A program made the position numbers and the translations under genes. From positions 3,692,599 to 3,756,598 of the forward strand of contig NZ_CP145809.1 of NCBI RefSeq assembly GCF_038049925.1: a stretch of DNA of 64,000 nucleotides, read 5' to 3'. The stretch comes from Georgenia sp. M64 (GTDB lineage Bacteria > Actinomycetota > Actinomycetes > Actinomycetales > Actinomycetaceae). Positions within the stretch are counted from its first letter, which is position 1, and the number at the start of each line of letters is the position of its first letter. Of the stretch, positions 50,836-63,505 are shown piece by piece. Below the pieces are notes generated by a model, which worked only from the letters and a program-made list of their open reading frames with translations, had not been told where the DNA came from and did not search any database.

Positions 50836-52389
50836 GTGCAGTTTCGCGAGTTCCTGGCAATCCTCGGTCGGCGCTGGCTGACGATCGCGGCGAGCACCCT
50901 GATCGTGCTGGCGGCGGCCGCAGCCGCCACGCTCTCCATCCCACCGACCTACACCGCGACGGCACGCGTCTTCTTCTCCGCGGAATCTCCCGAGACCGAG
51001 GACGGCGCCGCCGGGGGCACGTACGTCATTACCAGCTCCGACCTCACCACGTACGTCGAGGTCGTCAGTTCGCCTGTGGTGCGCGACCCGCTGCGAACCG
51101 ACCTGGGACTGACCGAAGGTTTCGGACTCGCCGCGAGCATCCCCGGCGGCTCTCCAATGCTCGACATCACCGCAACAGCCGGCGACGCCGCCACCGCGGC
51201 TGAGATCGCCAATGCCGCCGGGCCCACACTGGCCGAGGTTGCCGGTGACTTCTCGCCTCTCTTGGCCAACGCCGGGCAGAGCGTCACAGCCACTGCTCTG
51301 AGCCCCGCGCGCATCCCAGGTTCACCCAGCTCGCCCGATATCGAGAGAAACCTGCTCCTCGGCGCGCTAACTGGCCTCATGCTCGGGGTCGGGCTCGCGC
51401 TCGCCCGGCAGGGTCTGGACACGAAGGTGCGGTCCGAGTCCGACATCAAGGCGCTGTCTGACCGCCCCATCCTTGGCGTCGTGCCGTTCAGCCGGGCGTC
51501 CCGCCAGGATCCGTTGGTCATGGAGACGGACCCGCACGGTCCGCACGCCGAGGCCCTTCGTCGGTTGCGAACGAACCTCCTCTTCGTCGACGTCACCACG
51601 CGGAAGCACTCCTTCGTCGTCACCTCGGCGGTGCCCGGCGAAGGCAAGACCACCACTGCCGTCAACCTGGCCCTCGCGATGGCCGACGCCGGCTCACGGG
51701 TTCTTCTCGTCGACGCGGATCTTCGCAACCCCTCCGTAGCGTCGACGATGGGGCTCGAGGGGTCCGTGGGCCTGACAACGATCCTCCTGGGACGCGCGAC
51801 CGCCGATGACGTCGTCCAGCGCTGGAAGGACACCTCGCTCCAGGTCCTGCCCGCCGGGCAGATACCACCCAACCCGAGCGAGCTGCTGGGTTCGGAGGCC
51901 ATGGCGACGCTCTTCCGCGAGCTGAGCGCCAAGGCGGACTTCGTCATCGTGGATTCGCCGCCCGTCGTGCCGGTGATCGACGCGGTGCTCCTTACGCGCC
52001 TGACCGGTGGCGCCCTGCTCGTGGTGGGGGCCAACCGGACCCGCAAGCGTCATGTGTCGAGCGCACTGGAAGCGCTCGAGACGGTGGGTGCACCGGTCTC
52101 AGGTTTTTCCCTCAACATGGTTCAGGGCGGCTCGCGCGACGGGTACTACGGGTACCACAGGTATGGATCCAGACCGACCGAGGGGCGCACCGTCGCCACG
52201 GACGAGGAAGGCGAGTCAACCACCACTCCCCCCCTCCACCCCTCGGCTTCGGGCGGCGACCGCACCGGACGCGACACCACTCCCGCCCTCCACCGCGGCG
52301 GCGAGACGCAGAATCTCCAGTCCGCCGACGCCATGCAAGCGGTGGAGGAAATGGCGGCCTCACGCCGTCGAGGTCGCGGGCGCTCCTAA
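50836..52389 (+). CDS. EPS chain-length regulator/tyrosine autokinase (Wzz + BY-kinase)
   Basis: 517 residues from GTG 50836 (GGGAG about 9 nt upstream). A Wzz-like N-terminal part has two helices (about 15-37 and 175-192). A BY-kinase domain follows with Walker A VVTSAVPGEGKTTTAVNLA, Walker A' VLLVDADLRNPS and Walker B DFVIVDSPPVV. A Tyr cluster (DGYYGYHRYGS) about 70 residues before the end is the probable autophosphorylation site. Such kinases control polymer length and export by cycling phosphorylation, but no partner phosphatase gene is present in the window. Confidence 0.95.
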   Translation: MQFREFLAILGRRWLTIAASTLIVLAAAAAATLSIPPTYTATARVFFSAESPETEDGAAGGTYVITSSDLTTYVEVVSSPVVRDPLRTDLGLTEGFGLAASIPGGSPMLDITATAGDAATAAEIANAAGPTLAEVAGDFSPLLANAGQSVTATALSPARIPGSPSSPDIERNLLLGALTGLMLGVGLALARQGLDTKVRSESDIKALSDRPILGVVPFSRASRQDPLVMETDPHGPHAEALRRLRTNLLFVDVTTRKHSFVVTSAVPGEGKTTTAVNLALAMADAGSRVLLVDADLRNPSVASTMGLEGSVGLTTILLGRATADDVVQRWKDTSLQVLPAGQIPPNPSELLGSEAMATLFRELSAKADFVIVDSPPVVPVIDAVLLTRLTGGALLVVGANRTRKRHVSSALEALETVGAPVSGFSLNMVQGGSRDGYYGYHRYGSRPTEGRTVATDEEGESTTTPPLHPSASGGDRTGRDTTPALHRGGETQNLQSADAMQAVEEMAASRRRGRGRS

Positions 52390-52394
52390 GTGCC

Positions 52395-53108
52395 TTACCA
52401 GGTGAGGCCGCCGTCGAGAGATACAAGGAGCTCGGTCCCCACCCACAGCCACACTGCGGTACCCGCGCGCGCCACCGCGACCCCGTCTGCTTCAACCGCC
52501 GTCGCACAACCGCTCGCCGCGCCGACGGCCTCGGCTTCGGGGGCCATCGAGGCGACCGCGATACCCTCGCAGGCCGCGGAGCGCGTAGCGATGACATACC
52601 CCTTCACGTCTGTGCTCACGGCGACGGCCGGGCCGTCGGTGGTCACGGGCGCCCACGAGGCGCCCGCGTCGTCAGTGCGCTGAACGCTTCCGTCCGTGCA
52701 CCGTATGAGCGCGCGCGGGACGTCCAAGCCGTCCAGGGTCGCTGCACCACCGGCACAGGGGGTGTCCGCCTCCCCGAGTGGCGTCATCATCCGGCTCGGA
52801 TTGATCGGCATGAGGTACCACGAGCCGGCGAGAAGATCGGACCGGTCCTCCCACACCTCACCATCCGCCGATGTCACGTACCGCGGCGCACAGTCGGCGT
52901 CACCACCGATCACCGCCACAGGACCGTCGCCCGTTATCCGGATCCGCGTTACCGGACCAAGGTCGAGGCCCACAGACGTCCAGGTCCGGCCAGCGTCGAG
53001 GGTGCGCTCGACCAGCGGTGGAGTGCCACACCTGCCGCCCTCGGTCCGCCACGCCTCGACGTCGCTGGCCGCCGCTAGGATCCGAGACGCACGGGGGGAG
53101 GGATCCCT
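52395..53108 (-). pseudogene. BNR/Asp-box membrane protein, C-terminal part (split by IS21)
   Basis: Frame open from the IS junction at 53108 to TAA 52395-52397. Asp-box repeats: TLDAGRTWTSVG, TSADGEVWEDRS, RTDDAGASWAPV and a final SLDGGLTW directly before the stop, pointing to a small sialidase-like propeller half. The first residues after the junction read RDPSPRASRILAAAS. Joining to the N-terminal part at 55764-55963, with the insertion and one target copy removed, restores one 302-residue frame. The native role is unknown; its neighbour is the BY-kinase of the EPS cluster. Confidence 0.92.
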
Positions 53109-53243
53109 TGTTGGCGGCCACGGGAGACTGCCCGGAGGCGGCCAGATAGCTGCCCGGTGGCGGTCGTGAGAGTTGCCCGCTGACGGTCATGGGATCTGCC
53201 CGACACGACATTCCTGCCCTGCCGCGCTGACGCGGTTCGGGGC

Positions 53244-53294
53244 CCCTCCTCGGGTGCGATGGCGGTGCTGAAGCGCCCATCGCCCCGAGGAGGG
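53244..53294 (+). promoter_or_regulatory. Hairpin that buries the istA ribosome site
   Basis: CCTCCTCGGGTGCGATGG (53245-53262) pairs with CCATCGCCCCGAGGAGG (53277-53293), one bulge. The right arm includes the GAGGAGGG ribosome site of istA (GTG 53300). It would block translation of transcripts reading in from outside, as known for other insertion sequences. Confidence 0.65.
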
Positions 53295-53299
53295 ACAAC

Positions 53300-54832
53300 G
53301 TGAAGTCTGCCGAGGAGATCATGGAAATTCTCGAAGCGTTTGATCTGACTGGTTCGTACAGGGACGCCGGCGAGCTCGCCGGGGTCTCCCATCACACCGT
53401 CGCCCGATACGTCGCCGCTCGTGACGCGGGACGGTTGAGCGAGAGGCCGGCGGCCCGTCCGCAGCTGATCGATGAGTTCTTGCCCAAGGTCGAGGAGTGG
53501 GTGGACAAGAGCAACGGCAAGATCCGCGCCGACATCGCCCATGACAAGCTGGTTGCCCTGGGATTCACCGGGTCGGAGCGGACAACCCGCCGGGCGGTCG
53601 CGGCGGTGAAGAAGGCTTACCGGCAGGGCAGGGCCCGGGTGCATCGGCCCTGGGTCACCGAGCCGGGGCTGTGGTTGCAGTACGACTTCGGTGACGGCCC
53701 GGTCATCGACGGCGCGCGGACGGTGTTGTTCTGCGCGTGGCTGGCGTGGTCGAGGTTCCGGGTCGTGCTGGCGATCAGGGACAAGACGATGCCGAGCGTG
53801 TTCGCCGCCCTGGACCAGGTCTTCCGGGTTCTGGGTGGGGTGCCGACGTATGTGCTGACCGACAACGAGAAGACCGTCACCGTCGAGCACATCGCCGGGA
53901 TGGCGGTGCGGAACCCGCAGATGGTGGCCTTCGCCCGGCACTACGGGGTCAGCGTGCTCACGTGCGAGCCGGCCGACCCGGCAAGCAAGGGCGGGACGGA
54001 GGCCACGGTCAAGGTCGCCAAGGCCGACCTGGTCCCGAAGGAGACGAACCTGCTGCCCGGTTACGCCTCGTTCGCCGAGCTCGAGGCGGCCTGTCAGGCG
54101 TTCACCGATCTGGTCAATCACCGGGTCCACCGGGTCACCCGGCGGGTCCCGGCGGAGATGCTGGCCGAGGAACGCGCCCGCCTGCATGCCCTGCCGGCGG
54201 CCCCGCACACGGTCGCGTTCGGGCTGACACGGCAGGTGCCGGCGAACTCCCCGATGGTGACCTTCGAGGCCGGGCAGTACTCCGTGCCGCATCACCTCCT
54301 CGGGGAGAGGGTGTGGGTCCGCACCTACGGCGCCGGGCCTGGGGAGCAGGTCGTCATCGTCCACGCCGGCGAGTCCGGCCCGGTCGAGGTCGCCCGCCAC
54401 GCCCGCGCCACACCGGGCTCCCCGAGCATCGACGACGCGCACTTCCCGCCCGCCCCGGCCGGTGCCCTGGAGCGCCGGCCGCGTCCGAAGAGCGCCGCGG
54501 AGATCGAGTTCCTCGCCCTGGGTGACGGGGCCCGGCTCTGGCTGAGCGAGGCCGCCGCGGCCGGCACGACGAAGATGCGGGTCAAGATGGCCGAGGCCGT
54601 CGCCCTGGCCAAGCTCTTCGATCCCGGTGAGGTCGACTGGGCCCTGGGCCACGCCGCCGTCCACGCCCGCTTCGCCGAGGCCGACCTGCCCTCGATCCTG
54701 AACCACGCGGGCACGAGCGACGGTGAGGTCCACCGCGCCGGGGAGGACCGCTCCTTGACCCAGGGCACCGCCGGCTGGGCCGCCCTGGGCCAGCAACCGC
54801 CCGCCAGCCCCGGCGTCGAGGAGGTGGCCTGA
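53300..54832 (+). CDS. istA: IS21-family transposase IstA
   Basis: 510 residues from GTG 53300. An N-terminal helix-turn-helix (SYRDAGELAGVSHHTVARYV) binds the terminal repeats. The integrase-fold core has catalytic Asp in LQYDFGDGP and VLTDNEKTV, and Glu in KGGTEATVKVAK, giving an intact DDE triad. A C-terminal Mu-transposase-like beta domain follows (VTFEAGQYSVPHHLLGERV). The length is normal for the family. The stop overlaps the istB ATG. Confidence 0.96.
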   Translation: MKSAEEIMEILEAFDLTGSYRDAGELAGVSHHTVARYVAARDAGRLSERPAARPQLIDEFLPKVEEWVDKSNGKIRADIAHDKLVALGFTGSERTTRRAVAAVKKAYRQGRARVHRPWVTEPGLWLQYDFGDGPVIDGARTVLFCAWLAWSRFRVVLAIRDKTMPSVFAALDQVFRVLGGVPTYVLTDNEKTVTVEHIAGMAVRNPQMVAFARHYGVSVLTCEPADPASKGGTEATVKVAKADLVPKETNLLPGYASFAELEAACQAFTDLVNHRVHRVTRRVPAEMLAEERARLHALPAAPHTVAFGLTRQVPANSPMVTFEAGQYSVPHHLLGERVWVRTYGAGPGEQVVIVHAGESGPVEVARHARATPGSPSIDDAHFPPAPAGALERRPRPKSAAEIEFLALGDGARLWLSEAAAAGTTKMRVKMAEAVALAKLFDPGEVDWALGHAAVHARFAEADLPSILNHAGTSDGEVHRAGEDRSLTQGTAGWAALGQQPPASPGVEEVA

Positions 54833-55641
54833 TGACCACCACGACCACACGCACGAGCGTGCCGGCCCTGGGAGTGCCGTCCGCGCCGCCGCTACCCGGC
54901 GACCTCGAGGCCCTGCTCCGCCGGCTGCGCCTGCCCCACATCCGCCACCAGGCACCCGAGGTCATCGCCACCGCCAAGGCCCAACGCTGGGAACCCGTCG
55001 AGGTTCTACGGGCCCTGTTCGCCGAGGAGGCCGCCGGCCGGGACCGGGCCTCCCTGGCCACCCGCCGGACCGCGGCCGGGTTCCCCACCGGCAAGACGTT
55101 CGACGCCTGGGACGAGGCCGCGTCCTCGATCCCGGTCCCGACCCAGCACGCGCTACGGACCCTGGAGTGGGTCCACCGCAAGGAGAACCTCGTCGTCTGC
55201 GGGCCGTCGGGGACCGGGAAGACGTTCCTGCTCGAGGCCCTGGGGCACCAAGCCGTCGAGCAAGGCCTGCGGGTCTCGTGGTTCACCCTCGAAGACCTCG
55301 GCGCCCTCCTGCGCAGGCACCGCGCCGACGACACCGTCACCAAGGCCATCGCGAAGGTGCTGCGCGCCGACCTCGTGGTCGTCGACGACATCGGCCTCCT
55401 CCCGGTCGCCACCGACGCCGCCGAGGGCCTCTACCGCCTCGTCGACGCCGCCTACGAGAAACGAGCCGTCGCGATCAGCTCCAACCTCCACCCCGCCGGG
55501 TTCGACGAGCTCATGCCCAAGACCATCGCCACCGCGACCGTCGACCGGCTCCTCCACCACGCCCACGTCTGCCAGACCAGCGGCGAGTCCGTCCGCCTGT
55601 CCCAGGCCCTCTCCGGTCGAGGAGTGACGCCCTTGGCCTGA
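54832..55641 (+). CDS. istB: IS21 helper ATPase IstB
   Basis: 269 residues, AAA+ fold: Walker A CGPSGTGKTFLLEALGH, Walker B DLVVVDDIGLLPV, sensor-type AISSNLHPAGFDELM and a C-terminal VRLSQAL tail. IstB assembles on target DNA and activates IstA. ATG 54832 overlaps the istA stop (TGATG), the usual coupling. Confidence 0.96.
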   Translation: MTTTTTRTSVPALGVPSAPPLPGDLEALLRRLRLPHIRHQAPEVIATAKAQRWEPVEVLRALFAEEAAGRDRASLATRRTAAGFPTGKTFDAWDEAASSIPVPTQHALRTLEWVHRKENLVVCGPSGTGKTFLLEALGHQAVEQGLRVSWFTLEDLGALLRRHRADDTVTKAIAKVLRADLVVVDDIGLLPVATDAAEGLYRLVDAAYEKRAVAISSNLHPAGFDELMPKTIATATVDRLLHHAHVCQTSGESVRLSQALSGRGVTPLA

Positions 55642-55763
55642 CCACCCGGGCCGGTGATGGCCAGCCCCTGGGCAGATCCCATGGCCATCACCGGGCAGAT
55701 CCCGTGACCGTCACCGGGCAGGTCTCACGACCGCCCCTGGGCAGTTCCCACTGTCCCTTGACA

Positions 55764-55963
55764 TCCCTGGACGGAACAGGGACAGGGTCCTCGGTCGGGA
55801 CGGAGCTCGAAGGCGTTGTGGTGGTACCGCCGAGATCTTCGGCTGGGGCGGGTTCCGCGTCGGACCCGAACAACCCGAAGAGCCGACCGATGAGCACGGC
55901 ATTCAGCGCAAGCAGGGCGATCAGGCCGGCATAGGCAGCCAGCCGCCATCGGGATCGACCCAT
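55764..55963 (-). pseudogene. BNR/Asp-box membrane protein, N-terminal part (split by IS21)
   Basis: ATG 55963 begins a short basic head (GRSRWR) and one membrane helix (LAAYAGLIALLALNAVLIG), then a Pro/Thr linker ending DPVPVPSRD exactly at the IS junction. The frame matches the C-terminal fragment at 52395-53108 across the TCCCT duplication. As it stands the reading frame continues only about 25 residues into the IS end. Confidence 0.92.
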
Positions 55964-56020: not shown

Positions 56021-56320
56021 CTACCGGCCGGTGTCCGTTTCGCGTCTCTCGAGCAGTCCGAGCGAAACCAGCTCAGAGACGAACGCCTTGACCTGAGCCT
56101 CGATCGCGGCCGGCTTCTGCTCCGCCCGGACGGCTACGCGCTCCACCAGTCCGGCCTCGGGTTGCCCAGCGACCTCCGTCCAGATCAGCCCCGACACACC
56201 CGTGAGCGCGTACAGCGGACCCGTCGGGAGCTTCGCAAGGTACACATCGGCGGGGTGGACCTCGTCGGCCTCCACCACTGCGGCCACGTCTCGGGGCAGC
56301 CGGTACACCCACCGGCTCAT
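56021..56320 (-). CDS. PqqD-like peptide-binding (RRE-type) protein
   Basis: 99 residues. WVYRLPRDVAAVVEADEVHPADVYLAKLPTG, LTGVSGLIWTEVAG and VKAFVSELVSLGLLERR follow the PqqD pattern: three N-terminal strands, then a helical bundle ending in L-x-x-x-G-L-L/V. PqqD-like proteins bind leader peptides and present them to modifying enzymes. Its ATG (56320) overlaps the nucleotidyltransferase stop by 4 bp. It is the last gene of a four-gene operon whose kinase also ends in a PqqD-like domain. Confidence 0.85.
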   Translation of the reverse strand: MSRWVYRLPRDVAAVVEADEVHPADVYLAKLPTGPLYALTGVSGLIWTEVAGQPEAGLVERVAVRAEQKPAAIEAQVKAFVSELVSLGLLERRETDTGR

Positions 56321-57195
56321 CGTGGACGACCTCGACGCACGCGGGCTCCGACGACGCCGACCTGCTCCCTCAGACCGCGGAGGGGGCGCGCGAAGAACTC
56401 CTTGACGATGTCCCACCTCGTCGGGGCGCGCCCCAAGACGTGTGCGAGGTGCGGGACATTGACGAGTGGCGCACGCAGGATGAGCGCAGCTGCGCCACGG
56501 AGGCTGGGAGCGGCCCGTACCCGGGCAGTCCATTCCTGCAGCCTTGTGCCCCCTTGGGAGGCGATCCGCCACAGGCTGTAATCGCGAGCACCCCGGAACT
56601 GCTCGAGGTTGCCCGTCCCGGCCGCGAATGCGACGTCGGCGTGAAGCCGGCGAACCAGCTCCTCGCAGTCCCTCATCACCTCCGAGGGCAGGGACGCCAA
56701 CGTCCCAAGTGTCTCCGTGTTCTGTCCTCTCCCACCCCGCGCGGAGTTCAGGACCAGTAGCAACACCTGTGCCGGCACGCTGGGGACCGGGCAGGCGACG
56801 CCCGCGATCTCCACAGACTGGCACCCGGCCCAGAGAACGTCGAACGCCTCGGTGGGATCGATGCCGATGCCGGGGAAGAGCTGGTGGACGTCGACCGATC
56901 CCCACGTCTCGTGGGTCAGGGTCGTCGCGTGCGCGAAGGGCGAGCCGGAGGTAAACGTGCCGTGCGCCGTCCAACCGATTGCCCGCATCTCCTCGATCAG
57001 TCCACGAGCGGAGGCCGGCCTCACGATGACGTCAGCATCATTGCCAGCCCGAACGAACGGCCTGATCAGAGGTGACCACGCCCACCCCTTGATGTGAAGG
57101 ACGTCGATCTCGAGGCGGTCAGCGAGGTGCTGCACCACGGCATGGCCGAATGCGACGCGGACCCGCAGGTCCACCGACACCTCGGGCGAAGTCAC
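56317..57195 (-). CDS. Nucleotidyltransferase family protein (NTP_transf_5-like)
   Basis: 292 residues. IDVLHIKGWAWSPLIRP and GNDADVIVRPASARGLIEEM match the family core (K-G and N/S-D-x-D metal-binding motif), and SVDVHQLFPGIG supplies the third acidic strand. Such proteins sit beside PqqD and HPr-kinase-like genes in EPS-linked and some lasso-peptide clusters, where a role in extending a phosphoryl group has been proposed or shown for individual members. The substrate is unknown. It is coupled to the PqqD gene. Confidence 0.85.
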   Translation of the reverse strand: MTSPEVSVDLRVRVAFGHAVVQHLADRLEIDVLHIKGWAWSPLIRPFVRAGNDADVIVRPASARGLIEEMRAIGWTAHGTFTSGSPFAHATTLTHETWGSVDVHQLFPGIGIDPTEAFDVLWAGCQSVEIAGVACPVPSVPAQVLLLVLNSARGGRGQNTETLGTLASLPSEVMRDCEELVRRLHADVAFAAGTGNLEQFRGARDYSLWRIASQGGTRLQEWTARVRAAPSLRGAAALILRAPLVNVPHLAHVLGRAPTRWDIVKEFFARPLRGLREQVGVVGARVRRGRPR

Positions 57196-57248
57196 GACCT
57201 CATGCTAGAAGCCGGCGCGAACGGGCGGGGTCGGTCCGAAGACCGCCG

Positions 57249-58484
57249 TCATGGGACGGCCGTCGATGTGGCTGCAGAGCGCGAGAGCAGTGAGCCGAGG
57301 CGTTGCGGAGCTCCGCGCACGACCACGCCGGCCTGCACCATATGCTCGACCGCCTCGTGCACCTGTGCACGGGCCTCGGGGTGTGGTCCGTGAACGTCGA
57401 CCACGACCTCCACCAGGTTGTCGAGCGTCGGTTGATCGACGGCGGCCTGCCAGATCGTCAACCCGATACCGCTCAGTCGCACCGGGGTTCGCCCGAGAAG
57501 GACGAGAGCCTCGCCCTCGACGATGACGGCATCCGTCCACGGCGTCCGCCGGACCCGGCCATCGAGCAGACCCCACCTCATGTCCTCGCCATCGTAGGGC
57601 TCACCGGCGGGTCGCCACACCGACGCGCGTGGTTCCTCTGTCACCAGCTGCCGGAGGATCCCGGCCGCGGCGGAGACCTCGCTGTAGTGCAACCTCTTGG
57701 CGCCGCCGCAGGCGTCCAGAAGCGTACTCAGCTGGATGAACGGCCGGGAGAAGGACGTCACGTCGACCGACAACTGGGCAAGCTCGAGTAGCCCGTCGAT
57801 CAGCGGGACCGACTCCACCCACGGGGTTGTCACATCGTTGTCACGTTCCAGGAGCACGACTGCTCGGAGCCTCAGGTCGGCCGGGCATCTCCTCAGGCCG
57901 AGCGCGTCCGGGCCGTGCTGGGTCTTGATGCTGGGGTGCATCTCCGATACCAGGGAGAGCGGCTTGGGATACGCGATGACCTTGCCGAGCGGAGTGATCC
58001 CCACGGCCTCGTCAGTGACATATCCGAACTCGGAGGTCGTCAACGCGATCGCCGCGGTGGTCTTGCCGCTCCCTGAAGGGCCGACGAGGGCGATGACGTC
58101 CCCGTCGTCGGTGGCAACGCCGCAGCCGTGGACCACCCACAGACTGCCGCTCGCCGCGCGTGCTGCGAGCGTGGTGATGTTCGTCGCGAGCCGGTAGCCG
58201 AAGGTTGGGACGTCGGGAGCGCCAGGAGCCTCGACAACGGCGAGCACGTCGACGTCTTCCTCCCGAGCGCTGCAGCGTGCCCACTCGGCCGCGAGGAGAT
58301 TCCTCGTGTCTGCCTGGTCGCAACGGATCCGCACACGGGAGCCGAGCACAGCGATCTCCAGCTCGTAGTCCGGGGACTCGGCTTCGCTGTCGGTCAGTGC
58401 ACGGGCAGAGCTCACGGGGGCAGCCGAACGACCGCGGTCACTGGCCGGCGTACGAGCGCCGAACTCCAAACTTCCGCTTCCCAC
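57249..58484 (-). CDS. HPr-kinase-like P-loop protein fused to a PqqD-like domain
   Basis: 411 residues. The kinase part (about 45-310) has WVVHGCGVATDDGDVIALVGPSGSGKTTAAIAL (strand plus Walker A), YVTDEAVGI (Walker-B/DD-like) and AVVLLERD, as in HprK-related kinases. The last 85 residues (DAVIVEGEALVLLGRTPVRLSGIGLTIWQAA ... AVEHMVQAGVVVRG in separate blocks) repeat the PqqD-like fold seen in the stand-alone protein at 56021. GTG 58484 follows the upstream stop by 3 nt; an internal GTG at 58415 is a possible alternative. It probably phosphorylates a peptide or protein bound through its own PqqD-like domain (inference). Confidence 0.82.
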   Translation of the reverse strand: MGSGSLEFGARTPASDRGRSAAPVSSARALTDSEAESPDYELEIAVLGSRVRIRCDQADTRNLLAAEWARCSAREEDVDVLAVVEAPGAPDVPTFGYRLATNITTLAARAASGSLWVVHGCGVATDDGDVIALVGPSGSGKTTAAIALTTSEFGYVTDEAVGITPLGKVIAYPKPLSLVSEMHPSIKTQHGPDALGLRRCPADLRLRAVVLLERDNDVTTPWVESVPLIDGLLELAQLSVDVTSFSRPFIQLSTLLDACGGAKRLHYSEVSAAAGILRQLVTEEPRASVWRPAGEPYDGEDMRWGLLDGRVRRTPWTDAVIVEGEALVLLGRTPVRLSGIGLTIWQAAVDQPTLDNLVEVVVDVHGPHPEARAQVHEAVEHMVQAGVVVRGAPQRLGSLLSRSAATSTAVP

Positions 58485-58487
58485 CTA

Positions 58488-59075
58488 TCAGGTATTCGGT
58501 AGCCACTGCGCGAAGTTCGGCGTGTCGACGTTCTGGTACGGCGACGGCGGCTTCTGAGAGTTGCAGTCGGCGATGTTGACACCGATCAGGAGATCGGTGA
58601 TCGAGCCCGAGTCCGTCGGCGGGTCGGTCACGCCGTTCTCGTCTCCAGCCGTCCAGGTGTAGTCGAGCTCAAGGTCGAACGAGGCGGCTGTGTCGCTCGG
58701 CTGTGAGTTGACAACCAGGACGTAAGACTCGCCCGGAGCGAAGGTGCGCCCCGGGATCGGAGGGAACACCACGTCCGCTCCGCTGCTCGCATTAGGAGTG
58801 AGGACCACGTCACTGATGGTGATGTACACCCCGGTGGTGTTCGTGAATACCAACTCGAAGTGATAGACCTTGGAGTTCGAGAACTTGCAGGCACCCTCGA
58901 CGGCCGTCACCTCGACCGGCGGCGGTTCAGGAGAGAAGCCCGCATATGCAGGCACCGCGGTCGCCACAGCGACCACTGGGACCGACCAGGCGGCGCCGGC
59001 GAGCACCGTCCGGCGGCTCATCCCGCGCTTCTCCTGCTGCTCGCCCGAACCTGTAGCGTCCATGTTCTCAGCCAT
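58488..59075 (-). CDS. Tat-exported beta-rich protein, head gene of the kinase/PqqD operon
   Basis: About 195 residues from ATG 59075 (GTG 59084 is an alternative). The twin-arginine leader KRGMSRRTVLAGAAWSVPVV ends at AYA. The mature part is a beta-sandwich-like domain (VYHFELVFTNTTGVYITISDVVL; GRTFAPGESYVLVVN; SFDLELDYTW) with two Cys (GACKFS and ADCNSQ), and a Ser/Thr/Pro/Asn tail ending NFAQWLPNT. No enzyme motif is visible. As first gene of the operon it is the obvious candidate substrate or partner of the modifying genes, but this is unproven. Confidence 0.8.
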   Translation of the reverse strand: MAENMDATGSGEQQEKRGMSRRTVLAGAAWSVPVVAVATAVPAYAGFSPEPPPVEVTAVEGACKFSNSKVYHFELVFTNTTGVYITISDVVLTPNASSGADVVFPPIPGRTFAPGESYVLVVNSQPSDTAASFDLELDYTWTAGDENGVTDPPTDSGSITDLLIGVNIADCNSQKPPSPYQNVDTPNFAQWLPNT

Positions 59076-59341: not shown

Positions 59342-60190
59342 GTGGGGGAAACCGGACGGGAGCGCACCGCCGTCGTCGTCGAGGACGACGCGGACGTCCG
59401 CCTGCTCCTCGCCGCGACGTTGAGCCAGGCCGGTTTCACCGTCCACACCGCCGGTTCGGGCGCCGACGGCGTCGCGGCGGTGCGCGAGCACGCCCCGGCC
59501 GTGGTCACCCTCGACCTCTCTTTGCCGGACATCGACGGCTTCGAGGTCTGCCGGCGGATCCGGGCGTTCTCCGACGCCTACGTCGTCATGCTCACCGGCC
59601 GCTCGGAGGAGATCGACACCCTCCTCGGCCTGGAGTCCGGCGCCGACGACTACCTCACGAAGCCCTTCCGCCCGCGCGAGCTTCGGGCTCGCGTCGAGGC
59701 GATGCTGCGCCGTCCGCGCCGCCCGGACGGGGCCACCGTGGACGCCGGGCCGGGAGCCGCCGCCGATACCGCGGCGACTGGGGGGAGCACCGGCGGGGCC
59801 CCGCCGGCCGGGCACCCCACCACGGCGTCGCCCGCCCAGACCGGGACGCCCCCTGCGCAGCCCGGGCACCTCAGCCACCACGGTCTGCGCGTGGACACCG
59901 CCGCCCGCATGGTCGACATCGACGGCACCCCGGTCCACCTCACCCGGAGCGAGTTCGACCTGCTGGCCGCCCTGGTCGCCGAGCCGAACCGGGTGCTGCG
60001 CAAGGCCGAGCTCGTCCGGCGCCTGTGGGGCCAGGACTACGACACCGGCACGCCGGTCCTTGACTCGGACCTGCGCACGGTCGAGGTCCACATGGCCAAC
60101 CTGCGCCGCAAGCTCGGCGACGACGCCGCGTCCCCGCGGTTTGTCGTCACGGTGCGCGGGGTCGGGTACCGCCTCGCCCCGGCGGTCTGA
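59342..60190 (+). CDS. Orphan OmpR-family response regulator with a long linker
   Basis: 282 residues. The receiver domain has acidic VVEDDAD, phospho-acceptor in TLDLSLPDIDG, VVMLTGRSEEID and LTKPFRPRELRARV. A disordered 55-residue Gly/Ala/Pro/Thr linker (about 125-180) joins it to a winged-helix DNA-binding domain (VHLTRSEFDLLAALV, VEVHMANLRRKLGD, VTVRGVGYRL). No kinase gene is adjacent. The next gene, convergent, ends in an HPt-like domain. The shared operators suggest that this protein regulates itself and the EPS cluster. Confidence 0.93.
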   Translation: MGETGRERTAVVVEDDADVRLLLAATLSQAGFTVHTAGSGADGVAAVREHAPAVVTLDLSLPDIDGFEVCRRIRAFSDAYVVMLTGRSEEIDTLLGLESGADDYLTKPFRPRELRARVEAMLRRPRRPDGATVDAGPGAAADTAATGGSTGGAPPAGHPTTASPAQTGTPPAQPGHLSHHGLRVDTAARMVDIDGTPVHLTRSEFDLLAALVAEPNRVLRKAELVRRLWGQDYDTGTPVLDSDLRTVEVHMANLRRKLGDDAASPRFVVTVRGVGYRLAPAV

Positions 60191-60254: not shown

Positions 60255-61454
60255 TCAGGGGGCGAACATCGCCCCGGCGGTCCCCACGCGCAGGTGCTCG
60301 GCGAGCGCCCGCTGGGTCTCGTTGGTGAGGTCCATGAGCCGGCGCAGCTCCCGGTCGGCCACGGCCATGTCGCCGCGCCGGCCCGCCTCGGCGACGAGCT
60401 GGGCGTGCCGGGCGAGCGCCGCTGCCCCCACCATCGAGGCGGAGGTGTGCAGGCTCAGGGCCGCCACGTGCACCTCCTCGGCGTCGCCGGCGACGACGGC
60501 GCGCGCCACCCGGTTGCACGAGTCGCCCAACCGCTTGAGGTAGGCCAGGCCGAAGCCGGACGCGGCGTCGTCGCCGACGTCGTGGGCAAGGGTGCCCAGG
60601 GCCGCGGGGTCGAGGATCATGTCGTCTTCTCCGGTCCGGTCGGCGTCCGTCGGCACGCCGTGCCCGGCGTCGACGTCCTGCGGGCCGGCGGGGGCGTCGT
60701 GGGCACGCCGGCCGGCAGACCGGTCGGCCGCGGCGCGTACGAGCTGGATCCCCGCATAGCCCAAGAGTGCCACGGCCAGCGCGGCCGTGCCGGTGCGCTT
60801 CTGGTCCCCGTCCAGCGCCGTCGCGAGGTAGCCGGCGTAGGGGATGTGGTAGCGGACCACGCCCCTGACCTGCGTCGCCGTGAGCGGCCACGGGTCGGCG
60901 GCGTCGTTCGCGTCGCCCCGGGTCGTCAGGACCACGGTGCCGTCCGCGGCGACGGCGCGCGCCACGACCCGGTGGGTGACGAGGGTCGGGTCGTTCGGGT
61001 AGGGCATGACGGTGACGACGTCACCGGGCGCGAGGGCCGCCGTCGCCGCCTCGCCCCGCACGGGCTCGACGACCACCTGGCTGCCGGTGGGGATGGTCGG
61101 CTCCATCGAGCCCGACAGGATCGTCAGCGGCACCCAGCCGGCCAGGTGCGGGACGACGACCATCGCCAGGGCCAGGGCCGCGACGACGGCGAGCGCGAGC
61201 CATCCGGCGACGGTGACCACGGCGCGCGCACCGAGATGAATCGCGCCTCGGCGCACCTCCGCCTGCGGCCCGGCAAGCTCGGCGTCGGGCCCGGCGTCGG
61301 GCTCGGCGGCGACGGCGAGGTGCCGGAGGTCCGACGACGGCGCGCGATGTGCGCCGAGGCCGAGACGGTCGACATCAACCCGGTCCCGGAGCCCATCGGC
61401 CTCGGCGCTCCGCTCACCGTCGGGCTCGGCGACGCCGGTGGTCAGGGCCGCCAT
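60255..61454 (-). CDS. SipW-type signal peptidase continuous with a C-terminal HPt-like domain
   Basis: 399 residues in one open frame. Residues 1-75 are hydrophilic. A helix (about 77-102) precedes the ER-type peptidase core: LSGSMEPTIPTGS (Ser), THRVVARAV (His) and TTRGDANDAADPWPL (Asp box). A second helix (ALAVALLGYAGIQLV) and a 45-residue linker follow. The last 120 residues are an all-helical HPt-like domain with ALSLHTSASMVGA where HPt proteins have A-H-x-L-K-G-S; the phospho-His site is Leu and the Lys is His. GGAGAAG precedes the in-frame ATG at the linker end (MILDPAALG), so the HPt part may also be made separately. The ATG overlaps the substrate gene's stop. Confidence 0.85.
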   Translation of the reverse strand: MAALTTGVAEPDGERSAEADGLRDRVDVDRLGLGAHRAPSSDLRHLAVAAEPDAGPDAELAGPQAEVRRGAIHLGARAVVTVAGWLALAVVAALALAMVVVPHLAGWVPLTILSGSMEPTIPTGSQVVVEPVRGEAATAALAPGDVVTVMPYPNDPTLVTHRVVARAVAADGTVVLTTRGDANDAADPWPLTATQVRGVVRYHIPYAGYLATALDGDQKRTGTAALAVALLGYAGIQLVRAAADRSAGRRAHDAPAGPQDVDAGHGVPTDADRTGEDDMILDPAALGTLAHDVGDDAASGFGLAYLKRLGDSCNRVARAVVAGDAEEVHVAALSLHTSASMVGAAALARHAQLVAEAGRRGDMAVADRELRRLMDLTNETQRALAEHLRVGTAGAMFAP

Positions 61455-62842
61455 CACACGCCTCCCGCCGGGCCGAGGCAGCTGACGTTGCCGCTCTGGC
61501 CGCGAACCTCGGCGGTGACCGCCTGCGCGCCGCGGACCACGCCGCCGGCGGCGGTCTCGGCGACGAGGACGAGGTCGAAGCGGTCGGCCGTGGCGACGGG
61601 GATCGCGCCGACGGTGAGGTCGAGGGTGCGCGCCCCGGGCGCCGTCAGCGCGGTGAGCCGGGTCCACGGACCCAGGGTGTCGCCGGTCCCCGTCGCCGTC
61701 CGGGTGCGGGCGAGGACGTGCCAGGAGCGCACGGCCGCGCCGGACCACGTCCAGCCCAGCGCCGCACCGGCGTTGGAGTTGTAGGAGGAGCAGGTCAGGG
61801 TGAGCCCGGCGTCGGACGCGGGGGTGGGCACGGTGAAGGTGGCGCCGGTGACGGTGGTGGCGGGGAGCGTCCAGCCGCCCGCCGCGACACCGGTGCCCGT
61901 GACCGTCGTCGTCGCGACGACGGCGCGCCCGGGCAGCGCGAGGCTGAGCAGCACGGGGTCGGCGGGAGCGACAGCGAGGCACAGGGCCATGGCCGCGCCG
62001 GGCGCGAGGACCTCGGTGCCGGTCAGCGGGGCCGTGGCGGCGCAGGAGGAGCCGTCGGTGCCGCGTGCGAGGCCCACGCGGAGCGCCGGGGCGAGGGCGG
62101 CGGCCTCCGCGGCGGTGGTGCCGGGGCCGGCGACCAGGGTGGGGGCGCTCGCCCGCCACGCCAGGCTGGTCTCGGCGGCGGCGGACGTCAGACGCGTGCC
62201 GCCGGGGACGGGGGTGGCGGACAGTTGCAGCCGGTCGGTCGTGACGGCGGGCAGCGCCGTGGCGGTCGCGGCGGACCAGGTGCCGCCCGCGTCCTGGGTG
62301 AGGGACCAGGCCAGGGCCGGGGTCGCGGTCTCGCCCTGGAGGTAGGCGCCCCACGCACTCGCCCCGGGTCCCACCGGGAGGGTGAGCGTGGCGGTCAGCG
62401 GACCGGCGTTCGCGGGGACGACCCGCCAGGACCCGGCCGCGACCGGCACGGGGGCCGGGCCGTTCGCGGCGGAGAGGGCGACCGCCGCGTGGGCGATGAG
62501 CTCGGCGGGCAGGGACCCGGCGCCGGTGGCCGAGGGGGTGAGCGTGAGGACGGCGCTGAGGCCGTCTCCGGCCATCGCCAGGTCGCCGCCCGCCTCGACG
62601 ACGAGCGTGTCACCGGGCAGCAGACGCCGGTCGCCGAGGGACGTGGTGACGTCCGCCCGCGGGCTGCCGGGCCGGTCGAGGTGCAGCCGGGCGGCGCCGC
62701 CGGTGACGGCGAGCCGGCCGGAGGTGAGCTGCGCCCCGCCCACCTCCCGGGCGTCCGACCAGCCCGCGTAGCTGCCGCCGTTGCCCGCGAGGAGGGCGAC
62801 GGCGAGCACGCCCGCGGCGGCGGCGCTCAGGAGGCGGGACAT
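61454..62842 (-). CDS. SipW-type exported protein, large beta-rich substrate
   Basis: 462 residues. The alternate signal is SAAAAGVLAVALLAGNGGS followed by YAGWSDAREVGGAQLTSG, with the W-S-D landmark after the core. The mature chain is Ala/Thr/Val-rich with repeated beta segments and four Cys (SSCAATAP, ALCLAVAP, LTCSSYNSN, VSCLGPAGG) that may form disulfides. WHVLARTRTATGTGD looks like part of a fibronectin-type strand set. It is coupled to the signal peptidase-HPt gene by an ATGA overlap and is its probable substrate. Confidence 0.85.
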   Translation of the reverse strand: MSRLLSAAAAGVLAVALLAGNGGSYAGWSDAREVGGAQLTSGRLAVTGGAARLHLDRPGSPRADVTTSLGDRRLLPGDTLVVEAGGDLAMAGDGLSAVLTLTPSATGAGSLPAELIAHAAVALSAANGPAPVPVAAGSWRVVPANAGPLTATLTLPVGPGASAWGAYLQGETATPALAWSLTQDAGGTWSAATATALPAVTTDRLQLSATPVPGGTRLTSAAAETSLAWRASAPTLVAGPGTTAAEAAALAPALRVGLARGTDGSSCAATAPLTGTEVLAPGAAMALCLAVAPADPVLLSLALPGRAVVATTTVTGTGVAAGGWTLPATTVTGATFTVPTPASDAGLTLTCSSYNSNAGAALGWTWSGAAVRSWHVLARTRTATGTGDTLGPWTRLTALTAPGARTLDLTVGAIPVATADRFDLVLVAETAAGGVVRGAQAVTAEVRGQSGNVSCLGPAGGV

Positions 62843-62849
62843 CGGGTCG

Positions 62850-63395
62850 TCAGGCGATCTTCTGCTCGAGGGTGATCTGGAAGTCGGCGAGCTCGGCGGT
62901 CGCGTCCTGGGCGCGCTGGCCCCAGGCCGCTTCCGCGTCGTCCACCGTGGGGAAGGTGATGGTCGCGACGACGGTGTACTCGCCGCTGTCGGTGATCGTC
63001 GTGCCGTCCTGACCGTTGACCTGGACCTCGACGGTCAGGCCCTCGGCGAGAGCGACGTCGGCCTCGGCCTCGGCCGCCGCGGTGACGGCGGTCGGCAGGG
63101 TGGTGGCCAGCTCGGCCTCGAGCCCGTCGCCGGCCAGTGCGACGTCGACCGTGGCGGTGTAGGTGAGGACCGAGCCGGGGATGACGAGGTAGTCGTCGAT
63201 GGCGATCTCCTCGCCGCCCGCGGTCCAGACGACGCTGGCCTCGTCGACCCGCAGGTGGCCCGAGGTGATGGTGGCGCCCCCGAGGTCCTCGGTGTCCGAC
63301 CAGGTGGCGAACGAGCCGCCGCCGGCGGCGAGGAGGGCGATACCGGCGACGCCGGCGAGGACGGCCTTGCGGGTGCGGGTGCGGGGGGCGCTCAT
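62850..63395 (-). CDS. SipW-type (alternate signal) exported protein
   Basis: 181 residues from ATG 63395 (GGAAGAGAAG upstream; the longer frame to 63479 is rejected). Signal RKAVLAGVAGIALLAAGGGS, then FATWSDTEDLGGATITSGHL, the most typical landmark of this export class. The mature part is acidic with beta strands and a helix-prone AAAEAEADVALAEG stretch. It is the first gene of the second SipW locus and probably a TasA-like surface protein. Confidence 0.88.
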   Translation of the reverse strand: MSAPRTRTRKAVLAGVAGIALLAAGGGSFATWSDTEDLGGATITSGHLRVDEASVVWTAGGEEIAIDDYLVIPGSVLTYTATVDVALAGDGLEAELATTLPTAVTAAAEAEADVALAEGLTVEVQVNGQDGTTITDSGEYTVVATITFPTVDDAEAAWGQRAQDATAELADFQITLEQKIA

Positions 63396-63505
63396 GGTCT
63401 TCTCTTCCGGCTCGGTGCGCCGGCGTGTCTGCCGGGCTGCTGGTGAGAAGACTCGCGGGCGTCCCTCAGGACCGGGCACCGTCGCGGTTCATGTCCGCTC
63501 AAGAT

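Follow-up and report, generated by a model that had tools for sequence, protein, structure and literature searches.

Lasso peptide clusters with phosphorylated or glycosylated products, such as those of paeninodin, pseudomycoidin (psmK/psmN) and bsf, combine a kinase, a nucleotidyltransferase-type enzyme and a PqqD-fold recognition element (RRE) of ribosomally synthesized and post-translationally modified peptides (RiPPs). The same kinds of protein are encoded, beside a protein exported by twin-arginine translocation (Tat), in a four-gene cassette of Georgenia sp. M64. It lies in a stretch of 64,000 nucleotides (contig NZ_CP145809.1, positions 3,692,599 to 3,756,598), here called the window. 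On balance, we consider it probable that the cassette is a leader-guided protein-modification system, in which the RREs read the Tat signal, the kinase phosphorylates and the nucleotidyltransferase-fold (NTP) protein extends, all before export.

In the lasso systems, the YxxP and the Leu of the actinobacterial leader strip fit the hydrophobic cleft of the RRE TfuB1 (PMC6784204). A Ser is phosphorylated by PsmK, and the one or two hexoses added to the phospho-Ser are ascribed to PsmN, whose annotation is nucleotidyltransferase, a host enzyme being also possible (PMC9266682). BsfK phosphorylates Ser3, 19 residues past the Tyr of the YxxPxL motif, and its cluster also has a nucleotidyltransferase gene (PMC10368454).

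The Tat leaders described below carry a like motif of an aromatic residue, x-x-P-x and an aliphatic residue with the same spacing (W-x-x-P-x-[VIL] versus YxxPxL), and a Ser usually 17 residues past the W. The cassette differs from the lasso clusters in having no cyclase, leader protease or small precursor. Its proposed cargo is large and exported, its leader is a Tat signal peptide and it has two RRE domains, one of them fused to the kinase. The kinase and the NTP protein are likened to PsmK/PsmN and BsfK/BsfN by enzyme type and not by direct sequence comparison.

Three other known systems share part of this layout. Like the Tat proofreading chaperones TorD, DmsD and NapD, the cassette would provide a cytoplasmic protein that binds the Tat signal before export, but one with the PqqD fold and coupled to modifying enzymes. 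The HPr-rel-A families of NCBIfam (TIGR04352, HprK-related kinase A, and TIGR04353, PqqD_rel_X) also pair a kinase with a PqqD gene. However, the window kinase and four relatives score 19.5–29.6 bits against a cut-off of 200, and the PqqD partners scanned score, where matched, 17.6–32.2 bits against a cut-off of 35, so membership was rejected.

In the PEP-CTERM/EpsH (exosortase) system, one machine serves many scattered and unrelated exported proteins with a short terminal tag in producers of exopolysaccharide (EPS) (PMC1569441). Both the pairing of a machine with scattered tagged proteins and the tie to EPS recur here, as does the discovery pattern. Unlike PEP-CTERM, the tag is N-terminal within the Tat signal, and the machine is presumably a cytoplasmic set of kinase, NTP protein and RREs and not a membrane transpeptidase. 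The position of the shared tag sets the cassette apart from PEP-CTERM, which has a PEP motif and a membrane helix at the C-terminus, EpsH itself not having been searched for.

No name for the system was found in Pfam, NCBIfam or PADLOC, nor among the open-licence PMC matches listed. Its parts are of known kinds, and the pairing of the leader with the machine seems undescribed.

The cassette and the shared Tat leader

The four genes are tightly packed on the minus strand (Table 1), as a first-pass annotation made from the sequence alone had listed them and as the open reading frames (ORFs) confirm. The gaps are 3 bp between the Tat protein and kinase genes and 53 bp between the kinase and NTP genes, and the NTP gene stop overlaps the start of the stand-alone PqqD gene (ATGA). 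It had called them a Tat-exported protein, a fusion of an HPr-kinase-like protein with PqqD, a nucleotidyltransferase and a PqqD standing alone, and these identities hold, the nucleotidyltransferase being NTP_transf_5-like.

Table 1. Cassette features and an adjacent polysaccharide gene, in window positions (AF2, AlphaFold2; HMM, hidden Markov model)
Feature	Positions	Strand	Basis
Tat-exported leader-bearing protein, 195 aa, proposed substrate	58488..59075	-	ORF, sequence, leader HMM
W-x-x-P-x-V motif, residues 30-35 of the Tat signal peptide, proposed RRE docking site	58971..58988	-	Leader alignments
Ser48, proposed acceptor (mature +3 if cleavage is after A45)	58932..58934	-	Ser conservation near W+17; here W+18
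HPr-kinase-like P-loop kinase fused to a C-terminal PqqD (RRE-like) domain, 411 aa	57249..58484	-	AF2, Foldseek, residue conservation
Walker A GPSGSGKT, kinase residues 135-142	58059..58082	-	Conservation in 28 sequences
Kinase C-terminal PqqD/RRE domain, residues about 311-390	57315..57554	-	Profile hits, predicted secondary structure
Nucleotidyltransferase-fold protein, NTP_transf_5-like, 292 aa	56317..57195	-	Pfam under cut-off, KG/DxD, AF2, Foldseek
Stand-alone PqqD/RRE-like protein, 99 aa	56021..56320	-	Pfam over cut-off, profile versus PDB
Wzz/Wzc-like chain-length protein of the adjacent polysaccharide locus (context)	50836..52389	+	Pfam Wzz E=5e-9 and P-loop domain

The Tat protein of the window has no Pfam or NCBIfam family, and a plasmid search using it gave no match. 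Among 17 aligned Tat proteins, R21, R22, A29, W30, P33 and P42 are invariant, and the sequences outside the leader are divergent and poorly alignable. Most leaders follow RR-x7-W-x-x-P-x-[V/I/L]-x6-P-A-x-A and then a Ser at the signal-peptidase site, a conservation that exceeds the Tat consensus.

All the fetched DNA together holds 96 distinct leader proteins, and RR and then W stand in register in 91 of them. Counted from the W of these 91, P is found at +3 in 90, V, I or L at +5 in 86, P at +12 in 89 and A at +15 in 86. With RR in 91/91 (selected for RR..W), the hydrophobic core and the A-x-A, they have the features of Tat signals. Ser is at W+17 in 77 and within W+16 to W+19 in 90, and further on the conservation drops to background.

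Many of the 96 come from loci that the leader pattern or model had itself picked out (62 counted apart), which inflates W and P. Among the 40 leader proteins at loci fetched by the kinase or NTP protein only, RR..W is in register in 36, with P at +3 in all 36, V, I or L at +5 in 33, and Ser at W+17 in 31 and within W+16 to W+19 in 36. The four exceptions are three proteins of one neighbourhood (L044), in which L or I replaces the W, and one protein with shifted spacing.

The conservation persists with shortened leader models. When the mature columns were removed by cutting the model ahead of the cleavage site, Ser+17 was still found in 74 of 87. With the N-terminal half alone, W, P and V/I/L were found in 37 of 42, the remaining five being four mis-registered copies that bear the motif and one real exception (L044).

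We surveyed 297 genomes of the order and found the kinase in 51 and the NTP protein in 42, a genome with either being counted as having the system. The leader model (A3), with 35 columns built from 16 leaders of proteins adjoining kinase or NTP genes, was run on them with a presence threshold of E≤1e-4. Its scores are bimodal: 58 genomes have a best match at E≤1e-4 (57 at ≤1e-7), and 19 more fall between 1e-4 and 0.01. The Tat protein of the window, itself in the model, matches at E=5.6e-17 and is the sole match in its genome at E≤0.01.

The leader is present in 53 of the 57 genomes with the system versus 5 of the 240 without it (p=9e-48). For the NTP protein alone, it is present in 42/42 versus 16/255 (p=3e-38), and 11 of those 16 have the kinase. 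Excluding the 14 genomes that supplied model sequences leaves 39/43 versus 5/240. The co-occurrence of the Tat protein with the other three genes, which was a check on the first-pass annotation, is borne out by these and the neighbourhood counts, and the statistics reject a chance neighbourhood of genes.

In the following, L, G, g and f mark fetched neighbourhoods, genomes, genera and families. Within genera, the leader is present, with versus without the system, in 11/11 versus 1/11 (g18), 5/5 versus 0/7 (g35), 3/3 versus 0/4 (g14), 1/1 versus 0/22 (g15), 8/8 versus 4/10 (g20), 1/1 versus 0/1 (g72 and g21 each), 1/3 versus 0/1 (g26) and 0/1 versus 0/1 (g48). Within-genus permutation reached the observed overlap in 0 of 20000 trials. 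The DNA pattern RR-x-[hydrophobic]-x-x-GAAW-x-x-P occurs in 49 of the 297 genomes, 40 of them with the system by hand count, versus 17 for the reversed control.

Outside the order, 296 genomes of the class contain seven more with the NTP protein. Their leader matches are clear in five (E≤5e-8), weak in G498 (3e-4, beside the NTP gene) and doubtful in G354 (6e-4). In one family there (f45), the leader matches at E≤1e-3 in eight genomes, and each of the eight has the kinase.

Gene by gene, 59 neighbourhoods were compared, consisting of the window, 40 picked from 56 other kinase places and 18 picked NTP places. As the loci were picked, the counts within them are biased, whereas the 297-genome counts are unbiased. 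The NTP gene is found in 38 of them, and 33 of these 38 also have another PqqD no more than 3 kb away or in tandem on the kinase. Within 10 kb of the NTP gene, 27 have a kinase and 20 a leader protein. Among the 49 bearing the kinase, the same distance takes in the NTP gene in 27 and a leader protein in 20.

The leader proteins are often scattered away from the machinery. In at least 28 of the 57 genomes with the system (hand count of the listed rows), a leader protein is more than 20 kb from it or on another contig; 15 have them on the same contig and the other 13 on different contigs, some in fragmented assemblies. A genome has up to 12 leader proteins in the order and up to 14 outside it. 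Rows of five tandem Tat proteins, which match the Tat-protein profile, stand beside the kinase in L058 (10346-13909) and L059 (10197-13885), most with like leaders and differing bodies.

The mature parts are diverse. Twenty stretches chosen at scattered matches hold 23 leader proteins of 163–475 residues counted from the leader on, which are glycine-rich, RCC1-like or, in many cases, of no known family. Ten leader proteins scanned with Pfam gave one match, an RCC1-type protein, and nine scanned with NCBIfam gave none over the cut-off. A shared family of the mature parts was rejected on the poor alignment outside the leader and on this single Pfam match.

Kinase, nucleotidyltransferase and PqqD domains

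The AF2 model of the kinase has a predicted local distance difference test (pLDDT) score of 86.6. Foldseek matches it to phosphoenolpyruvate (PEP) carboxykinase (E=9e-7) and, at rank 50, to HPr kinase 1knx (E=9.5e-4), with TM-scores in the fold matches of only 0.2–0.4. The PEP carboxykinase-like P-loop fold, the Walker A motif and the catalytic acid agree with the HPr kinase/phosphatase superfamily. At least 90% of 28 kinase sequences keep S137, G138, G140, K141 and T143, and the same level of conservation holds for the P-loop, for a D-E pair and for a P-K-P-x-S motif.

The C-terminus of the kinase matches Pfam PqqD weakly and under the cut-off (16.6 bits, E=0.01). Aligned by hhalign with the stand-alone PqqD family, it gives a probability of 98.4 and E=9e-15, against 0.5 and 0.7 for two unrelated pairs used as controls. 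Its profile also matches the lasso RRE TbiB1 (5v1u, E=3.8e-5), and residues 318–384 form three strands and then three helices in the AF2 model with pLDDT >90. The first-pass annotation, which had staked itself on a PqqD fold at this end, survived the check.

The stand-alone PqqD protein belongs to Pfam PqqD (PF05402) with 28.5 bits over a cut-off of 23.4. The best PDB match of its family profile is TbiB1 (5v1u/5v1v, E=1.4e-13), as for a B1-type RRE of lasso and other RiPP clusters. Lasso PqqD 9x90 (E=1e-10), the PqqD family protein 9x8z (5e-9) and TfuB1 (2e-6) follow, and the PqqD of pyrroloquinoline quinone (PQQ) type ranks below the lasso RREs (2e-4, 5e-4). By these profiles, the cassette PqqD domains appear closest to the leader-binding domains of lasso peptides.

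The NTP protein falls short of Pfam NTP_transf_5 (PF14907), with 25.9 bits (E=9e-6) under a gathering cut-off of 31.2. Twenty homologues all share a K-G pair and a D-x-D. The D-x-D and the fold are consistent with this family, the AF2 model (pLDDT 90.7) matching MenT1, LnuA, ANT(2'') and more weakly FKRP in Foldseek. A sequence search for a solved relative of the family found none. Scanning a genome collection with the window NTP protein found no relative, and scanning it with a closer set of three sequences found four Knoellia/Janibacter loci, the closest named loci among those fetched.

The kinase varies in its domains among the loci. It carries two tandem PqqD domains in L046 (8870-10261), L053 (8715-10088) and L065 (8741-10078), as though the stand-alone PqqD were fused on. 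In L063, L068 and others, the PqqD of the kinase side has a small gene of its own. By Pfam, a low-molecular-weight (LMW, tyrosine) phosphatase domain is fused ahead of the kinase in L055 (9066-10976) and L058 (8275-9918), and such a phosphatase is encoded beside it in L063 (8151-8735).

A second group of kinase/PqqD fusions (L035, L036, L043, L045, L047 and L062) has no NTP gene or leader protein nearby. Its neighbours are an APP1-like phosphatase gene and, in 5/6, a formamidopyrimidine-DNA glycosylase (Fpg)-like gene, and it is probably a paralogous branch with another job. In G030, two kinase homologues have no recognisable P-loop (L038, 3026-4213, and L033, 10239-11765) and are possibly pseudo-enzymes by sequence; an intact P-loop is found in the same genome (L033, 7897-9207).

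Proposed modification and its alternatives

The evidence supports the system and its tag well and is best read as a system that places a phosphoryl or nucleotidyl modification on a secreted protein. The first-pass annotation had gone part of the way, since its co-occurrence and its kinase PqqD domain stood, while it missed the conserved Tat leader tag on many unrelated proteins.

In the proposed pathway, exported surface proteins with unrelated mature domains would bear the special Tat signal peptide and then the Ser. Two PqqD-fold RRE-like domains, kinase-fused and stand-alone, would bind the W-x-x-P-x-aliphatic strip in the cytoplasm as the lasso B1 proteins bind YxxPxL. The kinase would then phosphorylate the substrate, most likely at the conserved Ser beside the signal-peptidase site, and the NTP-fold enzyme would add a sugar or nucleotide to the phosphate. 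We infer the leader holding and both enzymatic steps because the same enzyme types act together in the phosphorylated lasso clusters.

In the window protein, the position of the conserved Ser suggests Ser48 as the acceptor. A C-terminal Thr or Ser of the Tat protein had been tried as the acceptor and was dropped, since the C-termini are not conserved. The modified protein would exit through Tat and lose its signal peptide, and the group would stay on or near the new N-terminus, perhaps as an attachment point to the exopolysaccharide of the neighbouring locus.

A fuller version of the proposal is tentative and, to us, rather doubtful as a whole. In it, the PqqD/RREs read the Tat signal as a RiPP-style leader, and before export the kinase and NTP protein attach a sugar or nucleotide through phosphate to the cleavage-site Ser of folded proteins. 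The product might be an N-terminal handle for exopolysaccharide linkage, making the system an N-terminal counterpart of PEP-CTERM/exosortase.

If the modification is real, RRE leader recognition would reach beyond small peptide natural products to a general tagging of exported proteins of full size, for which the Tat signal peptide would serve as the RRE-read leader. Actinobacterial surface proteins mostly without family assignment would share a modification, perhaps for anchoring to biofilm polysaccharide. Loss of the kinase should then shift the masses of many proteins at once.

Several observations weigh against a modification guided by the leader. The survey called the kinase and NTP protein by single-sequence searches at fixed thresholds, and only 14 of the 38 NTP neighbourhoods have all four parts together. 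Five of the 240 genomes without kinase or NTP hits have the leader (G011, G076, G090, G103 and G222), and a profile search there found no kinase and one partial NTP match (G090, 49/295 positions), PqqD not being searched for. Outside the order, G516 of another family has the leader (1.6e-7) and neither enzyme.

The leader proteins of these six genomes may be relics, may serve another machine or may carry Tat signals of their lineage. Weaker leader matches outside the order are found in G419 (1e-5), G327 (7e-5), G481 and G533, whose system status was left unchecked. Conversely, four genomes with the kinase have no leader, nor an NTP protein at the first threshold, although G122 has a weak NTP match by profile. 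In G122 and G190 of these four, the kinase stands in the setting common to six loci, beside Fpg-like and APP1-like phosphatase genes.

The motif and the Ser also admit other causes. Constraints from Tat or the membrane could also conserve the motif, which is part of the signal peptide's hydrophobic core, and the three leader-like proteins of L044 replace its W. A Ser at mature +1 to +4 occurs in 10 of 40 other signal-like ORFs (12 with RR, by a crude pattern), and a Ser near the cleavage site could reflect signal-peptidase preference.

The lasso precedents carry their own reservations. The true activity of PsmN is unsettled (PMC9266682), and Ala at the Tyr, Pro and Leu of the BsfA YxxPxL left phosphorylation unreduced (PMC10368454). 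Since these changes kept phosphorylation, the motif need not drive kinase recruitment.

Alternatively, the kinase/NTP/PqqD set might modify the exopolysaccharide or its lipid-linked precursor, with the leader proteins as matrix proteins that bind and travel with the polysaccharide. We regard this as unlikely. In its favour, the gene set often adjoins EPS genes: of the 59 neighbourhoods, 28 contain a protein cluster of Wzz/Wzc type and 17 one of bacterial sugar transferases (type confirmed by Pfam on one representative of each). The NTP model also weakly resembles FKRP, a ribitol-phosphate transferase.

A set of 184 genomes (G000-G183), 125 of them with Wzz, bears on this point. Wzz is present in 27 of the 29 leader-bearing genomes, but 98 of the 125 Wzz genomes have no leader, so EPS is insufficient. 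Among those 125, the leader is present in 24/26 with the system versus 3/99 without, which rejects plain EPS co-occurrence as the sole cause. Modification of the polysaccharide also leaves unexplained the PqqD domains, whose nearest solved relatives bind peptide leaders, and the sharply conserved leader on otherwise unrelated proteins.

Less likely still, the PqqD domains may be chaperones of Tat signals, with export gated by a phosphorylation switch tied to the bacterial tyrosine kinase (BY-kinase)/phosphatase cycle of EPS, so that the kinase regulates and does not decorate cargo. The LMW tyrosine phosphatase fused to the kinase (L055, L058) or adjoining it (L063) fits such a switch, and PqqD on Tat signals would parallel the known Tat chaperones. 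However, it leaves unexplained the NTP enzyme, present in 42 genomes that all have the leader, and the Ser placed after the leader.

The lasso assignment was examined in four genomes (G000, G030, G150 and G028). Their Asn_synthase matches are only on other contigs or megabases from the set, and Transglut_core3 gave none over the cut-off, its only match being distant and under it. The cyclase and leader protease of a lasso peptide cluster, whose absence the first-pass annotation had already noted, are found neither near the set in these genomes nor in the scanned window genes; other neighbourhoods were judged by representative Pfam scans and by eye. No small precursor with a YxxPxL leader was seen, the cargo being full-size exported proteins, with very small ORFs not searched for.

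A degenerate or unrecognised lasso or RiPP cluster, or a chance neighbourhood of common parts, is very improbable. The same enzyme types do occur as extra genes in phosphorylated lasso clusters, but no cyclase or Transglut_core3 protease stands beside the set in the four genomes, the 23 scattered cargoes read are of 163–475 residues and the co-occurrence is far above chance. A defence system was also rejected, PADLOC giving one weak P-loop match (E=0.002).

Surroundings of the cassette

The host genome is one contig of 4.18 Mb, in which the kinase is single-copy, two other matches being weak P-loop hits. To the left of the cassette, beyond an IS21-like insertion, lies a polysaccharide locus that encodes glycosyltransferases, the Wzz/Wzc-like protein and a protein like an O-antigen ligase.

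The IS21-like element spans 53150-55744, between the cassette and the EPS locus, with istA/istB-type ORFs named by eye at 53300-55641 and imperfect terminal inverted repeats at 53150-53202 and 55692-55744. It seems to split a gene into the ORF at 55688-55963, with a membrane-anchor-like N-terminus, and that at 52395-52973, with a weak BNR repeat match.

On the other side, the products of two genes on the minus strand (61454-62842 and 62850-63479) have N-termini like signal peptides and no significant Pfam match, and the genes resemble another surface-protein locus. Just upstream of the operon and divergent from it, a response regulator (Response_reg and Trans_reg_C) is encoded at 59342-60190, and a related regulator recurs near L042, L046 and L053.

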